Source: Phycisphaerales bacterium
GTDB lineage: Bacteria > Planctomycetota > Phycisphaerae > Phycisphaerales > UBA1924
Assembly: GCA_020427395.1 (NCBI GenBank)
Contig: JAGQON010000009.1
Coordinates: 1 to 64,000, forward strand
DNA length: 64,000 nucleotides
Direction of reading: 5' to 3'
The translations under genes were made by a program, and so were the position numbers. The notes under the pieces are model-generated. The model searched no databases, was not told the DNA's origin, and saw only the letters and a list, made by a program, of their open reading frames with translations. Shown piece by piece: positions 43,011 through 51,948 of this stretch; the stretch's first letter is position 1; each line of letters starts with the position of its first letter.

Positions 43011-44573
43011 TCAGCCCTCGTCTGAATCGCGAGGATCTGGCTGGGCGGGGCGCGGCATAACCACGAGCGTGCGGGCCGCTCGATCGCCGCGGTGCAGGGT
43101 TTCAGGGTCGATCAGGGCCAGGGCCGCGACCGGGGGCAGCAGCCACTTGATCCCGTTCCGGACCAATGAGGACCACAGGCTCGGACGCACGGGGGCACCA
43201 GGACGGGCGCGAACAACACGGATCCCCACCAGCATCTTGGCGGGCGTGGCTCCGAACAGGGCCTCGGTAAGGGTCGAGTACATCAGCCCGGTGATGATCA
43301 CCAGCGGAAACACGCTCCAGGCGTTGTCCGGACGCATGATCACCGTCAGGGTGAGGATGTCCGCGGCTGAGACATCGACGAGTCTGCCAACGACAGCGGT
43401 TACGAGGACGGCATCGAGCATGGTAGCGATCAGGCGTCGCCCCGGATCGGCGAGTACGACGCCTTCGGGCAGGTGCATCGCGCTTGAGTGATCGGGCATG
43501 ATGACCACGATCAGCACCCCCATCATGATGAGCATCATCATGCCCACCAGGAAACGGAACTCTTCGGGAGACACCGGGGTTGTAGCGATTGGTGCACCGC
43601 GATAGCGCTCTGCGCCGTCGAGCAGACCGAGCTCAAGGATCTCGATCGATGCGGGCGGCTGTTCCAAGGCCCCCTCGGCTGTCTCGCGATCGATGCTGAT
43701 CGCGATGAGGGAACCGCTGGACGAGAGCGCACCGATGGAGGCAGAATCAGGGAGATCAAGCCCGGAGGCAATCTCGAAGAGCCCCGTGGGGGACCACGAT
43801 CGAAGGCGGGTTTTTCCGGGTTCCTGCTCGTCAAGAACGCTCAGGGCGCGTGTGCCAGCGGTGATGCGGATGGCATCGCTGAGTTCGATTGATTCCGGGA
43901 ACTCGCTCCACGCCCCTGTTTCGGGGTCGAACTCGTGCGCGACAAAGCGGAGCCCGGATCGGTCGATCAGGACCGGGTGTTTGCCGATCGCGGTCAGTTC
44001 GAGGCGGGTGGTGTTGATGGATTCCGGGAGATCGACCGACTGCCAGTCGAGGCGATCAAGCACGCTAAGCGTGACGCGATTCTCGTCCTTGATGAGCGCC
44101 CATACCGCGCTGCTCGTGCCCTGCAACCCGATGAGTGAACCGTTTGTGACGATCGCGGGTTCGGTGTCGAAGCGGTCGGCCGAGCTGGCTACCCAGACGC
44201 CCCCGACGGGGCTGGGGGTCAGACTGAGCGAATAAACACGCATCAGGCGACGCTCGTTGGCGTAGACAGGCGGGTAGGCAAGATAGACACGATCGTTCAG
44301 GGCCGCGATCGAGACCGGGAGCTTTCGACCCAGCGGGCGGACAGCCTGCACCAGCCCCGGCTGGGCGGGCTCGTAACGTATGTCCGGGAGTTCATCGCGA
44401 GGCGGGATAAAGACGAGCAGGTGCTCCTGCTGGGTATTGCGGTAGATCGCCCATGCGCGAGAGGCGTCGGCATCGAGCGAGGCGGACATGAGCACGCGAT
44501 CATCCGCGCCGACCGCGCATGTCGCGAACAGCACCAGCACACACAGAAACTGGATCGATTGTCGAAGACGCAT
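43011..44573 (-). CDS. RDD-family membrane protein with a large N-terminal extracytoplasmic domain
   Basis: 520 residues. The signal peptide SIQFLCVLVLFATCAVGA is followed by an extracytoplasmic domain of about 320 residues with strand-rich repeats (FIPPRDELPDIRYEPAQPGL; IAISIDRETAEGALE), perhaps a beta propeller. Then come a membrane helix (FLVGMMMLIMMGVLIVVIMP) and an RDD domain with the typical first Arg and Asp residues in GRRLIATMLDAVLVTAVVGR and LFGATPAKMLVGIRVVRA. RDD domains occur in transporters and exchangers. Its ATG shares a base with the stop of the upstream lipoprotein gene (TGATG), so both act from one mRNA. Confidence 0.8.
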   Translation of the reverse strand: MRLRQSIQFLCVLVLFATCAVGADDRVLMSASLDADASRAWAIYRNTQQEHLLVFIPPRDELPDIRYEPAQPGLVQAVRPLGRKLPVSIAALNDRVYLAYPPVYANERRLMRVYSLSLTPSPVGGVWVASSADRFDTEPAIVTNGSLIGLQGTSSAVWALIKDENRVTLSVLDRLDWQSVDLPESINTTRLELTAIGKHPVLIDRSGLRFVAHEFDPETGAWSEFPESIELSDAIRITAGTRALSVLDEQEPGKTRLRSWSPTGLFEIASGLDLPDSASIGALSSSGSLIAISIDRETAEGALEQPPASIEILELGLLDGAERYRGAPIATTPVSPEEFRFLVGMMMLIMMGVLIVVIMPDHSSAMHLPEGVVLADPGRRLIATMLDAVLVTAVVGRLVDVSAADILTLTVIMRPDNAWSVFPLVIITGLMYSTLTEALFGATPAKMLVGIRVVRARPGAPVRPSLWSSLVRNGIKWLLPPVAALALIDPETLHRGDRAARTLVVMPRPAQPDPRDSDEG

Positions 44574-45445
44574 CAGGGTGCGGGCTCGGTTGCCGGTGCG
44601 GGCTCGTCGAGGGCTTCGTCGAGATCGATCACCTCGTCGACCCGGTAGTTGCGTTGGAGCCGATCAGGTTGGAAGACGATCCCGCGGATCTCGCGAGTCT
44701 CTGGCCCGGAGAGCTCGATGCGGATGAAGCCCTCGTCATTGGGGGTCGTGATCTCGATCTTGCCGGGCACTTGCACGGGCAGGGCACCGGAGACGGCCGC
44801 GTCCTTGTATCGGGTGAGCTCGGCGCTGGCGATGAGCTCGCCGAACTCGTCGAAGGCCTGTGTCTGAGACACGAGCCCAGTGCTCGGATCAAACCATGTG
44901 ACGATGGAGCCCCACTGCGTCGGGGACTGGAATCCGTAGGCCTTGCCGTCACTGCGCCACTGGGTGCCGCCGGCACGGGAGAGCTCGACGGGTGCGACGC
45001 CCGAGAGGGCAATCAGCTCGGCGGGGTGAACGGGCAGCCCGAGAGCCGCGGCCTTCACGCGGGTGACCTTGGACATATCGCCGACAAGCAGGAGCTTGCG
45101 GTCGCTGTCAGCGAGATTGAAGGACCAGTACTGCTCGGGTGAAGCCCCGAAGACAAAGTAGGTCTCGCCGAGCTTGCCGATCGAGAGCGAGACACGATCG
45201 GGCATCAGGATCTGCAGATGCCCCTCGCCCTGCTCCTCGAAGGGATCGCCGTTGTCGTAGGTGCCCTTGGCACGGACGCTGACGCGGGCCCAGAGTGTTT
45301 CGAGCGGTGCGATGCGCTGGTTGTGGGCCTCGGCGAGCTCCTGCGTGCTTGGCGGCGCGGGGAGCTTGGAGACATCGATCTTGCCGGTGTTCTTGCAGCC
45401 GAACATGGCAATAGCGGTGACTGTGAGCAGCGCGTATCGGATCAT
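44573..45445 (-). CDS. LolA-like lipoprotein of unknown function
   Basis: 290 residues. Lipoprotein signal peptide YALLTVTAIAMFGC with the lipidated Cys at residue 17. The mature protein has a half-barrel-like strand pattern: LETLWARVSVRAKGTYDNGD, GEGHLQILMPDRVSLSIGKL, GETYFVFGASPEQYWSFNLA and GSIVTWFDPSTGLVSQTQAF. This resembles LolA/LolB or DUF4292-type carriers, which hold hydrophobic ligands. The tail is Pro/Glu/Ala-rich. It is coupled upstream (4-bp overlap) and downstream (1-bp overlap). Fold assignment is tentative. Confidence 0.65.
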   Translation of the reverse strand: MIRYALLTVTAIAMFGCKNTGKIDVSKLPAPPSTQELAEAHNQRIAPLETLWARVSVRAKGTYDNGDPFEEQGEGHLQILMPDRVSLSIGKLGETYFVFGASPEQYWSFNLADSDRKLLLVGDMSKVTRVKAAALGLPVHPAELIALSGVAPVELSRAGGTQWRSDGKAYGFQSPTQWGSIVTWFDPSTGLVSQTQAFDEFGELIASAELTRYKDAAVSGALPVQVPGKIEITTPNDEGFIRIELSGPETREIRGIVFQPDRLQRNYRVDEVIDLDEALDEPAPATEPAP

Positions 45446-45978
45446 GCGGGCACCTCGTCGAGGTTCATGACCTGCCCGATCTCCTCAGTGGCCTGGGCGA
45501 TGGTCTCGTTGTCGAGCCCGGGGTCGACGACCTCGAACAGGGGGCCGTCGCCGCCCTTGACGCGTTGGCGGAGGACCAGCACGCCCGGCTCACCGTCGCG
45601 GGCGGGGGTCGCGCGTTCATAGACGAGTACCTTCTTCCGCATGAGGATCAGGGCGAGCAGGTAGCGGAAGGCGAGCTGGCGTGGCTCGGTGGCATCGCCG
45701 AGCTGCTCGAACAGGTCCATCATCTCGTCGGGCGAGACGAGGGGACGCTGCGTTTCTTCCTTCTCGGGGAGGGTGCGACGCCAGAATCCAAACAGCGTGG
45801 CGTCTGGAGGCAGGTTGGGGCCCTGAGCCCACGCTTCGAGGGTGTAGGCGACGCGGACGAGGGCCTCTTCCTCGGGAGTCTCGATCAGGGCGGCGATGTG
45901 CTCCTCCCCCACCTCGATCGTTCGACCGGTGCGGGCGCACACATCCTGGGTCTTGATGATGTCGTACGGCATGGACAT
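45442..45978 (-). CDS. Hypothetical protein, first gene of a three-gene coupled unit
   Basis: 178 residues, not recognised. The N-terminus, MSMPYDIIKTQDVCARTGRT, has a lone Cys in a segment that resembles half of a zinc ribbon. The centre, LAFRYLLALILMRKKVLVYE, is a hydrophobic helix followed by basic residues, and the last part is strand-rich (GVLVLRQRVKGGDGPLFEVV). It looks soluble and cytoplasmic. The stop overlaps the start of the lipoprotein gene as ATGA. Together with the lipoprotein and RDD genes it probably forms an envelope-related operon. Confidence 0.65.
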   Translation of the reverse strand: MSMPYDIIKTQDVCARTGRTIEVGEEHIAALIETPEEEALVRVAYTLEAWAQGPNLPPDATLFGFWRRTLPEKEETQRPLVSPDEMMDLFEQLGDATEPRQLAFRYLLALILMRKKVLVYERATPARDGEPGVLVLRQRVKGGDGPLFEVVDPGLDNETIAQATEEIGQVMNLDEVPA

Positions 45979-47930: not shown

Positions 47931-48305
47931 ATGTACAGCATCACCGTCACCCACGAGTTCTGCGCCGCCCACACGCTGTCGATCGCGGGAGCCCAGGAGC
48001 CGCTGCACGGGCACAACTTTGTCACAAAGGCGACGATTGCTGGCGATACGCTCGATGCGGACGGGCTGCTGTGTGATTTCCATACGGTGCACGCGGTGCT
48101 GGTGGAGATCTGTGAGCCGTTCACGAACCGGAACTTCAACGAGGTTCCGCCGTTTGATGCAACGAACCCCTCGGCGGAGCTCATCGCCAGGCACATCGCG
48201 GATGAGCTGGCGGGGCGGCTCGATGAGGCGCTGGCACCCAACGCTCGGGTCCAGAGCGTGAGCATCACTGAAGCCCCGGGGTGCGTAGCCGTTTATAGCC
48301 GCTGA
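47931..48305 (+). CDS. 6-pyruvoyl-tetrahydropterin synthase / QueD family protein lacking the catalytic Cys
   Basis: 124 residues, normal for the T-fold family. Zinc ligands are in place: His in FCAAHTLS and both His in LHGHNF. The C-terminal Glu is in SITEAPGCVAVY. In PTPS and QueD a Cys lies four residues before HGHN (C-x-x-x-HGHN); here the spot is Gln in AQEPLHGHNF. The enzyme may be a PTPS-III-like or otherwise altered pterin enzyme, so the gene symbol is withheld. The stop of the small membrane gene lies two bases upstream. QueD would feed queuosine synthesis; a folate role is also possible, as folK is in the same region of the genome. Confidence 0.8.
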   Translation: MYSITVTHEFCAAHTLSIAGAQEPLHGHNFVTKATIAGDTLDADGLLCDFHTVHAVLVEICEPFTNRNFNEVPPFDATNPSAELIARHIADELAGRLDEALAPNARVQSVSITEAPGCVAVYSR

Positions 48306-48468
48306 GGCGGGTTGGGCGGCGCAATTGCTGCCGAGCGTGACTCGGGCGGCACGAATCTGAGACAAAGTCCCCAGACCCACCAAACCCACCCAATGCGCGG
48401 GCCGATCGGAATCGCGAGCATCGGCGCGGACCGGTGCGCACCGTGATCACACACCAAAGGACATGCGC

Positions 48469-48984
48469 ATGAACAACTGGAACACCCCCTTCGGCGGCAA
48501 TACCTGGGGCTTCAACGGCTTCAATGGCTTCCCCGGCAACTGGAACTGGAACAACTTCAACGGCTTCGGCTCGTTCCCGACCAACGGGTTCGGCTTCAAC
48601 GGCTCGAACTTCGGCACCCCCTTCGGCGGGTTTGGCGGGTTCGGCGGCAACACCACCCCCTGGAACTGGAACAACAGCTTCAACGGCTTTGGTGGCTTCA
48701 ATGGCTTCAGCGGCTTCCCCAGCTTCTGGAACGGCTTTGGTGCTCCCAGCTTCAACTGGGGCTTCAACACCCCCTACGGCTTCGGCTTCAACGGCGGGTA
48801 CAACGGCAACTACAACTGGAGCGAGCCAAACGAGTTCACCGGTGAGTTCGAGGGCTACAACAACGGCTTCAACGGCTATGCCCCCTTCCCCGGCGGCTTC
48901 AACCCCGGTTTCAACGGTGGGTTCAATGGCGGCTACAACGGTGGGTTCAACCCCAACTTCAACGGCTACAACCAAGCCGCTTGA
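48469..48984 (+). CDS. Phe-Gly-Asn-rich low-complexity protein resembling FG repeats
   Basis: 171 residues from the ATG at 48469; AAAGGA lies seven bases upstream, whereas the ATG at 48463 is only one base away from it. There is no signal peptide or membrane segment. Almost all residues are Phe, Gly, Asn, Trp, Tyr, Pro and Ser. The motifs FNGF and GFGG recur, ten FG dipeptides are present, and the core has WNWNN twice. There are no Lys, Arg or Asp residues, and the four Glu lie close together in SEPNEFTGEFEGY. The composition resembles FG-nucleoporin and prion-like domains, which form hydrogels or condensates. Codon use is strongly biased and ordered. A strong terminator follows 30 nt later, so it looks like a well expressed single gene. 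Confidence 0.85.
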   Translation: MNNWNTPFGGNTWGFNGFNGFPGNWNWNNFNGFGSFPTNGFGFNGSNFGTPFGGFGGFGGNTTPWNWNNSFNGFGGFNGFSGFPSFWNGFGAPSFNWGFNTPYGFGFNGGYNGNYNWSEPNEFTGEFEGYNNGFNGYAPFPGGFNPGFNGGFNGGYNGGFNPNFNGYNQAA

Positions 48985-49014
48985 TCCGATCCGAGCCAAC
49001 CTGATCAGAACCAG

Positions 49015-49037
49015 CCCGCGTCCGTCGCGGGTTTTTT
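49015..49037 (+). terminator. Rho-independent terminator after the FG-repeat gene
   Basis: CCCGCG (49015-49020), loop TCCGT, CGCGGG (49026-49031), then TTTTTT. Confidence 0.92.
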
Positions 49038-49129
49038 CGTGCATTTATGGCGTGAAGTGCGGACCGGTTCGGCTCTAAGGGCTTGGGAGAACGCCCTTTG
49101 GCGCGTAGAATGCCGTCGGAGGTACGGGG

Positions 49130-50446
49130 TTGTCGACGTTGCGGCATCTGGCATTTGGAGTGATCGTGCTGTGCTCGCTGCATTCGAGTGCACGGGGATC
49201 GCCATTCTGCCCCGCGGATATCAACAGCGACAGCAACCTCAACTTTTACGATGTTTCGCGGTTCGTCGAGCAGTTCATCGGGAACAACCTGGATGCGGAT
49301 CTCAACCACGACGGATCGCTGAACTTTTTCGATATCTCCGCGTTCCTGATCTCCTACTTGGACGGGTGCCCAGACCTCACTGATACCGACGGAGATCGCA
49401 TCCCCGACTTTGCGGAGACCGATGATGGTCGGTACTTCGGCTATCAGCGGGTGGGTACGAACCCGCTGAATCCTGATACAGACGGTGATGGAATCCTCGA
49501 TGGCGATGAGCTGCTGGGGACCGTGGACGGGCTGGATCTTCCCACTCTGGGGGCGGACCCATTGCGCCGGGATATCTTTGTGGAGTGCGATTGGTTCGCG
49601 GGCGACTTTAATGGCTTTGAAGTAAGCCATCGACCCAGCGACGAGGTGATCGATCGCGTGGTCGATGCCTTCGCCATCGCACCGGTAGAGAACCCGTACG
49701 GGGCGGACCCCGGTGTGCAGATCCACTTCGATTACGGGCAGGGCGGGGTGTTCAACGGCGGGAATCAGCTGCCGGGCAATCCGATCTTCATCCTGTTCGA
49801 CTTCGAGTTCAACATCCTCAAGGAGCAGTTCCTGGACGAGAACCGGCGGGCGTACTTCCATTACGCGATCTTTGCCCACCGCTACAACACCTCGACGAAC
49901 AACTCATCTGGGGTGGGCGAGCTCAACGGCAACGACTTCATGGTCACGCTCTCGACCTACGGCACCCCCACCATCATGGCCAACACGATCATGCATGAGC
50001 TGGGGCACAACCTCGGGTTGCGACACGGTGGGTTTGAGGAACTCAACTGGAAGCCCAACTACAACTCGGTGATGAACTACCGCTACCAGTTCGGCGGCGT
50101 GGACCTTGATGGGGACGCGATGGGCGATGGGCTGCCTGATTACTCGATCGGGCTCTTGGCGATGCTCGATGAATCACGGCTGGTCGAGTTTGAGGGGATC
50201 GATGGCGTGACTCCGATCGACTGGGACGGGGACGGCGCGATTGAGACGAACTCGTACGCGGGGAACATCAACTGCGAGTTCGGGATACGCAGTTGCGGCA
50301 ATGGCTCCAACTGCTGGGACAGCGTCTGCTCGAATCTGCGTGACTTTGATGACTGGGGCTCAATCAACTGGGATCGCCTGACCGGGAGCATCGACCGCCA
50401 GCCGAAGCGAGAGATCATCGAGTGCCGCGGACCGATATCACCCTGA
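49130..50446 (+). CDS. Secreted metzincin-type metalloprotease with N-terminal EF-hand/dockerin-like repeats (paralogue 1)
   Basis: 438 residues from a TTG at 49130 with GGAGG about ten bases upstream. The signal peptide is LAFGVIVLCSLHSSARGS. Two dockerin-like calcium repeats follow: DINSDSNLNFYDVSRFVEQF and DLNHDGSLNFFDISAFLISY. A thrombospondin type-3-like stretch has DTDGDRIPDFAE and DTDGDGILDGDE. The protease motif is HELGHNLGLRHGG near residue 300 (HExxHxxGxxH, zinc ligands and catalytic Glu), and a Met-turn candidate SVMNYRY follows 20 residues later. The C-terminal 80 residues hold several Cys. The protein is probably exported and binds calcium. The next gene is its close paralogue. 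Confidence 0.88.
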   Translation: MSTLRHLAFGVIVLCSLHSSARGSPFCPADINSDSNLNFYDVSRFVEQFIGNNLDADLNHDGSLNFFDISAFLISYLDGCPDLTDTDGDRIPDFAETDDGRYFGYQRVGTNPLNPDTDGDGILDGDELLGTVDGLDLPTLGADPLRRDIFVECDWFAGDFNGFEVSHRPSDEVIDRVVDAFAIAPVENPYGADPGVQIHFDYGQGGVFNGGNQLPGNPIFILFDFEFNILKEQFLDENRRAYFHYAIFAHRYNTSTNNSSGVGELNGNDFMVTLSTYGTPTIMANTIMHELGHNLGLRHGGFEELNWKPNYNSVMNYRYQFGGVDLDGDAMGDGLPDYSIGLLAMLDESRLVEFEGIDGVTPIDWDGDGAIETNSYAGNINCEFGIRSCGNGSNCWDSVCSNLRDFDDWGSINWDRLTGSIDRQPKREIIECRGPISP

Positions 50447-50543: not shown

Positions 50544-50625
50544 CGGCACTTGAGAGATTATTGCCCTTAGGATCGCGATGATCGCCAACCCACGACAGAC
50601 CCGTATATCTATGGAGCGGAGAGAC

Positions 50626-51948
50626 ATGAATCGAATGAAAACCCTGCTGATGATCAGTGCCATGTGCACGAGCCCCTTTGCTCTGGCTGGTGGCTCGCAG
50701 ACCTGTACCGCTGACTTTACGGGCGATGGCTCTCTGGACTTCTTTGATGTCTCGGCGTTCCTGGTTGGCTACCAGTCGCAGGATCCGATCAGCGATCTGA
50801 ATAACGATGGGCTGTTCAACTTCTTCGATGTCTCGGCGTTCCTCATCGCGTATCAGGACGGCTGCGATCTGGTGGATTCGGACAACGACCGCATCCCCGA
50901 TCTCTACGAGACCAACGACGGCGTCTACATCAACGAGAAGGCCACCGGGAGCGATCCGTTCGACGCCGATACCGACGATGACGGGATCAGAGACGGCGAT
51001 GAGGTGCTGGGCACCATCGATGGGCTCGATCTGCCCGCGATGGGTGCCAACCCCGTCCGGCGTACGATCTTTGTCGAGGTGGACTGGAACGAGGGCTTCG
51101 TGGAGGGCGAAGAGCGAAACTTCCGCCCCACCGAAGCCGGCGTGCAACGGATCGTTGATTGCTTTGCCGATGCGCCCGTGGAGAACCCCTACGGTGGTGC
51201 GCCTGGCATCGACATCATCATCGACTACGGGCAGGGCGGGGCGTTCACCGGCGGTGCGGCGCTCCCCGGCGACCCGTCGGTCTCGATCCAGTTTGACAAC
51301 GAGTTCAACTTCATCAAGTCGATCTTCTTCGACTCGAACCGTAACGGATATTTCCACTACTGCCTGAGCGCTAACCGGTACAACTCGCCGGACAACGGCT
51401 CATCGGGCATCGCCGAGCTGAATGGCGACGACTTCATGGTCACTCTGGCGGGCTTCTACAGCGACTACAACTTCTCCCAGACTTTCGTGCACGAGATCGG
51501 GCATAACCTCGGGCTGCGTCACGGCGGCTTTGAGAACCGCAACTGGAAGCCGAACTACAACTCGGTGATGAACTACCGCTTCCAGTTCCCGGGCAAGGAC
51601 ATCGACGCCGATACCATCGGGGACGGGGTTCTGGACTATTCGACGGGTGACTACTTCAACATCAACGAGGCCAGCGTCCGTGAGATCGACGGCGTGGCGG
51701 GCATCGGCGTTGACTTCAATGGCAACAGCGTGCTCGAGCCCCTGTCGTACCAGGCGAATCTGAACTGCTTCGCCGTGTACGCCGCCCCCTGCGCCACGAT
51801 GGACGGCTGCGATGACGACACCTGCGATGTTCTCCAGGACAGCAACGACTGGGCGAACCTGAACTACTTCGGGATCACCCAGAGCACGGATCGCCGCCCC
51901 GAGGCGGTCGAGATTATCGAGTGCGACAACCCGCCCTCAACCCGCTAA
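50626..51948 (+). CDS. Secreted metzincin-type metalloprotease with N-terminal EF-hand/dockerin-like repeats (paralogue 2)
   Basis: 440 residues from the ATG at 50626 (GGAGAG upstream). Signal peptide LLMISAMCTSPFALAGG. Repeats: DFTGDGSLDFFDVSAFLVGY and DLNNDGLFNFFDVSAFLIAY, then DSDNDRIPDLYE and DTDDDGIRDGDE. The catalytic motif is HEIGHNLGLRHGG, with SVMNYRF as Met-turn candidate. The Cys-rich C-terminus (NCFAVYAAPC, GCDDDTCDV) matches paralogue 1 in layout. The identity along the length is high enough by eye to mark a tandem duplication, but the promoter regions differ, so the two may be used under different conditions. Confidence 0.88.
   Translation: MNRMKTLLMISAMCTSPFALAGGSQTCTADFTGDGSLDFFDVSAFLVGYQSQDPISDLNNDGLFNFFDVSAFLIAYQDGCDLVDSDNDRIPDLYETNDGVYINEKATGSDPFDADTDDDGIRDGDEVLGTIDGLDLPAMGANPVRRTIFVEVDWNEGFVEGEERNFRPTEAGVQRIVDCFADAPVENPYGGAPGIDIIIDYGQGGAFTGGAALPGDPSVSIQFDNEFNFIKSIFFDSNRNGYFHYCLSANRYNSPDNGSSGIAELNGDDFMVTLAGFYSDYNFSQTFVHEIGHNLGLRHGGFENRNWKPNYNSVMNYRFQFPGKDIDADTIGDGVLDYSTGDYFNINEASVREIDGVAGIGVDFNGNSVLEPLSYQANLNCFAVYAAPCATMDGCDDDTCDVLQDSNDWANLNYFGITQSTDRRPEAVEIIECDNPPSTR

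Follow-up and report, generated by a model that had tools for sequence, protein, structure and literature searches.

Positions 48469-48984 (+) of the window, by which we mean the whole 64,000-nt stretch of DNA analysed here, hold an open frame for a protein of 171 residues with a highly unusual make-up (G45 N39 F33 P13 W9 T8 S7 Y7 A4 E4 Q1 M1), which raises the question of whether this is a gene at all and, if so, what such a protein could do. The first-pass annotation had taken it for a deliberately expressed gene, as opposed to random low-complexity DNA, and had likened its product to FG-nucleoporins. Its description of the frame was accurate: the protein carries ten FG dipeptides and two WNWNN blocks (residues 25 and 65) and has no Lys, Arg or Asp; Cys, His, Leu, Ile and Val are missing as well. 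With local background frequencies, the absence of L, I, V, M, K and R across 170 residues has a log10 P of about -32.5. The good ribosome site that had been claimed was confirmed as AAAGGA (48456-48461, +), which precedes the ATG at 48469 by 7 nt and an alternative in-frame ATG at 48463 by only 1 nt. Because of this spacing, and because the orthologues keep a purine-rich site (AAAGG or AGAAGG) at a comparable distance ahead of the equivalent Met, the start at 48469 is better than that at 48463. The claim of a strong terminator stood only in part. The putative intrinsic terminator, an 8-bp GC-rich hairpin with a T-run (49013-49038, +), is at chance level when taken alone (2 found versus 1.9 expected), but a hairpin and T-run of differing sequence occupy the same place, 24-49 nt past the stop codon, in 16/16 members of the host genus (15 in one check, plus G010).

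Syntenic copies of the gene were found in 16 of the 21 genomes of the host genus, and the five genomes without one are just 56-84% complete. A direct search of 101 genomes gave three clear same-genus copies, a single-protein scan of the genome contigs returned no match, and the profile contained no conserved stretch usable for searching. The anchors that worked were the neighbouring genes for QueD and an MBL-fold hydrolase. The upstream queD/PTPS-like gene (47931-48305, +; Pfam PF01242, E 6e-27), which has relatives in 53/61 genomes, led to 13 copies in the same place, the window's own included; two more genus copies were found with a profile and one (G010) with a DNA pattern. The commonest gene order is a small membrane protein, queD, the aromatic-rich gene and the MBL-fold hydrolase; in G020 and G010, gpsA lies upstream instead of queD, and atpG lies past the hydrolase. 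In the window, the position of the relatives' hydrolase is occupied by two adjacent, similar zinc-metalloprotease-like genes (49130-50446 and 50578-51948, +) with a HELGHN/HEIGHN motif and Asp-rich dockerin-like repeats. The listed neighbours include no maturase that would suit the idea of a RiPP precursor. The related contigs are Phycisphaerales metagenome-assembled genomes, in agreement with the planctomycete source that had been proposed.

A comparison of synonymous and non-synonymous change, suggested by the first-pass annotation, gave dN/dS values of 0.15-0.37 for the closer orthologue pairs, in which the differences concentrate at third positions. Further overlapping frames are open on both strands, including an Ala/Val/Glu-rich frame of 259 aa antisense to the gene (48265-49044, -), which results from the codon usage of the gene and is an annotation trap; since it is mostly the third positions of the FG-containing frame that vary between close orthologues, these overlapping frames are by-products. 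The frame 48469-48984 (+) is a real gene under selection.

Beyond the host genus, ten proteins of the same kind were identified in ten other Phycisphaerales genera, mostly out of reach of ordinary similarity search. The copies in G169 and HyVt-447, each in another genus of the same taxonomic family, adjoin the same hydrolase block, and HyVt-447 and G115, the latter also of this taxonomic family, have identical proteins. Degenerate DNA patterns combined with a composition filter brought the remaining eight to light, each in a different genus; seven belong to the same taxonomic family and one (G294) to another family of the order. These eight are longer on average (164-426 aa), contain more aliphatic residues, lie mostly at other places and end in REAA, RDAA, CAA, RDVA, RNVA or NVG. 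The longest, in G155 (locus L201, 1366-2643, +), is a 426-aa protein with 27 FG dipeptides that ends in QRDAA and is the most FG-nucleoporin-like member; the relative in G102 (locus L194, 1324-2193, +), the only member ending in VG, has a central L/I/Q-rich stretch, QALSQLLFALSQQTQWQLQSQQFALTQIIQALTLIQQ, that might form a helix in the disordered chain. The distant relatives may all be homologous or may in part be convergent. The genus profile recovered no member from another genus at E 0.01, searches using the distant proteins returned one self-match and one spurious match, and a phylum-wide pattern search of 324 genomes, with a pattern that detects only some members, found no such composition at its matches and none outside the order. 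The family is undescribed and lies within planctomycete bacteria, and no match to it was found in Pfam, NCBIfam or PDB. A phage or virus origin was considered and dropped, there being no phage or viral match. We also observed by eye that a three-gene block of the window (43011-45978, -) resembles one in locus L175 (10601-13445, +); the aromatic-rich gene of G144 lies near such a trio, and in both loci the two are a few kb apart.

Sequence in this family drifts fast and composition is kept. The 16 genus proteins are 22-30% aromatic and 20-32% Asn plus Gln, have almost no aliphatic residues, and contain between them one Lys and no Arg; with neither residue in most genus members there are no tryptic peptides, and standard (tryptic) proteomics would therefore miss the protein. 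Aromatic residues are spaced more evenly than in shuffled sequences in 25 of the 26 members (the same evenness is reached by a fraction <=0.038 of the shuffles, and by <=0.001 in 15/16 genus members), and adjacent aromatics are strongly depleted, the even spacing being partly a consequence of short repeats. Among the 16 genus proteins, TP[F/W] (63 seen versus 3.1 expected), WN (171 versus 54) and GF (188 versus 71) are enriched, and an N-terminal MFNTPF is fixed in most members. FG is near the expectation from composition (86 versus 71) and drops as low as two in several of the orthologues; FxFG is rarer than expected (4 versus 10.9) and absent from the window protein, and GLFG does not occur in any of the 16. 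The conserved features are thus composition, even aromatics, TP[F/W], WN, GF and a C-terminal -QAA; the FG dipeptides are not among them. On another contig of a genus member (G016:C56, 10112-10195; locus L210), overlapping TTCAACCGCTT(T/C) 12-mers encode an FNRF repeat. AlphaFold predicted no secondary structure for the window protein (mean pLDDT 48, pTM 0.13), a disordered result that is also what the program gives by default when a low-complexity sequence has few aligned relatives. The prion-like composition reported earlier is upheld, and full disorder is predicted; the even spacing of the aromatics, TP[F/W], WN, GF and the -QAA end had gone unmentioned in the earlier reading. By eye, neither the window protein, which has no Lys or Arg and no hydrophobic stretch, nor its orthologues show a signal peptide or membrane segment, which again agrees with the earlier reading. 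A curli-type amyloid was rejected: the CsgA repeat S-X5-Q-X-G-X2-N-X3-Q had no match in the 26 proteins.

How the gene might be controlled is suggested by its upstream region. Comparing the upstream regions together gave CCAAAC...CGCCGATC, and in the window the promoter-like element, which lies 87 nt ahead of the start codon, consists of AAAC (48382-48385, +), a 17-nt spacer and CGATC (48403-48407, +). AAAC-N17-CGATC is present in 17 of the 26 members, nine having no match: every one of the 15 genus members whose upstream sequence is long enough carries it, as do HyVt-447 and G294, always with a spacer of exactly 17 nt. Spacings other than 17 nt occur in 0-3 of the 26 members, and shuffled sequences match in 0.18 members on average; the motif is also matched by 3% of random 250-nt stretches. 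As the genus sequences themselves served to define the motif, only the constancy of the spacing and the two outside matches count as independent support. No sigma-70 promoter scored above shuffles upstream of the gene. An AAC/CGA pair at a distance of 17 nt resembles the promoters of ECF sigma factors, which are characterized by an AAC-type -35 and a CGA- or CGT-type -10 element with a fixed spacing of 16-17 nt, and from this likeness we infer that the element may be ECF-like and that expression may depend on stress. The codon adaptation of the gene is 0.82, compared with 0.67-0.83 in 14 ribosomal proteins, 12 of which it exceeds, the other two being about equal to it; the other open reading frames of the window have a median of 0.64, and only 0.05% of simulated genes with ribosomal-protein codon frequencies reach this value. 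Judged by its codons, the protein is probably very abundant.

The other end of the gene also has a distinctive signal. The Gln-Ala-Ala tail (codons 48973-48981, +), a possible ssrA-like degron, is QAA in all 16 members of the genus and also in G169, and of the 26 members 22 end in AA, three (distant ones) in VA and one in VG, compared with an AA end in 5 of 383 other open reading frames (1.3%). In E. coli, a terminal Ala-Ala is the main element recognized by ClpXP (PMC7652416), and the tmRNA tag of the host is AEPQYALAA.

Taken together, the sticker-and-spacer features, the putative ECF-like promoter and the ssrA-like tail make a reversible, conditional condensate the most economical reading, which we favour tentatively, granting it somewhat less than an even chance. 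We propose that evenly spaced Phe, Trp and Tyr would act as stickers, and Asn, Gly, Ser, Pro and Gln as spacers, in a stand-alone, fully disordered cytoplasmic chain; uniform aromatic stickers and polar spacers drive the phase separation of prion-like domains (PMC10491635). The protein would self-associate into a condensate or soft gel; transcription of its gene by an alternative, ECF-like sigma factor would confine its production to particular conditions; and its exposed -AA end would be a built-in degron through which ClpXP could clear it, giving a reversible pulse of sticky protein. Several points weigh against this proposal: the tail has Gln in place of the Leu of the ssrA tag, not all members end in AA or carry the promoter-like motif, prompt degradation would be wasteful for a protein that is required in large amounts, and such codon bias would also fit an exported structural protein. 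The wider proposal is possible but doubtful: Phycisphaerales would possess an undescribed class of purpose-built condensate proteins, nearly devoid of basic and, in the host genus, aliphatic residues, whose expression depends on an alternative sigma factor of their own and whose condensates ClpXP dissolves by way of an ssrA-like tail encoded in the genome; these would be regulated, fully disordered organelle-formers.

The excess of TP[F/W], the N-terminal MFNTPF and the fixed -QAA can also be read as docking sites for a partner such as an adaptor, a chaperone or a shell, which would make the protein a flexible multivalent hub or client and not a condensate former; no partner gene of matching distribution was identified, the neighbours being ordinary housekeeping genes, and we regard this as rather unlikely. 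A slightly less likely explanation is that the protein forms an adhesive or structural gel outside the cell or on its surface, where cell lysis or some unconventional export route would release it. Its composition does resemble that of sticky structural proteins, its predicted expression is high and folding would not be required, but no signal peptide or membrane segment is visible in it or its orthologues, and a conserved -AA end of the kind seen in ClpXP substrates points to the cytoplasm. It is improbable that the protein is a filler for which composition is the sole requirement, whether an amino-acid reserve or a bulk stress protectant: composition is indeed better conserved than sequence, codon adaptation is high and a degron-like end might permit the recovery of amino acids, but Trp and Phe would be an expensive store, and neither even aromatic spacing nor fixed motifs would be needed. 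An FG-nucleoporin-like selectivity barrier on internal membranes, the idea put forward in the first-pass annotation, is very improbable. The ten FG dipeptides of the window protein, the 27 in the distant G155 copy and a charge-poor, cohesive composition speak for it; against it, FG is neither enriched nor conserved, FxFG is missing from the window protein and GLFG throughout, no anchor domain is indicated (no predicted secondary structure, no Pfam match), and no pore or karyopherin gene came to notice in those stretches of the window that were looked at. Nothing was found to support the suggested tie to internal membranes. Finally, a chance open frame or DNA repeat in GC-rich, repetitive DNA, which the openness of both strands might suggest, is ruled out for practical purposes by the orthologues, dN/dS, the third-position pattern, codon bias, the improbable absence of residues, the conserved Shine-Dalgarno site and terminator, and TRF arrays that are weak and degenerate at most.

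The family would provide a simple natural test of sticker-and-spacer rules in bacteria: the protein is short and stand-alone, composition and aromatic spacing are kept despite drift, and the gene has a promoter-like element and a terminator to itself as well as a degron-like end. It is also an example of families that escape ordinary similarity search, most of the members in other genera having been recovered only with degenerate DNA patterns and a composition filter.

Bacterial condensates have mostly been described as parts of multi-domain proteins. Prion-like domains of the hnRNPA1/FUS type are likewise disordered, with polar spacers, uniform aromatic stickers and few charges, whereas the window protein is a whole, stand-alone bacterial protein that favours Phe and Trp over Tyr and has no Arg and no RNA-binding domain, the likeness involving no demonstrated sequence relation. 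FG nucleoporins are also Phe/Gly/Asn-rich, charge-poor and disordered; the window protein differs in being single and short, without FG enrichment, FxFG, GLFG or an anchor domain. Clostridioides difficile spores contain a protein described as Asn-rich and gel-forming (PMC5241399), which is likewise a small, lineage-specific bacterial protein, the likeness being one of description only; that protein has a spore function. Planctomycetes are not known to form spores. With ssrA/tmRNA-tagged and other Ala-Ala substrates of ClpXP, the window protein shares the Ala-Ala end that is also that of the host tag; in contrast to ssrA-tagged substrates, the tail of this family is encoded in the genome and is preceded by Gln (Arg-Glu/Asp in other genera).
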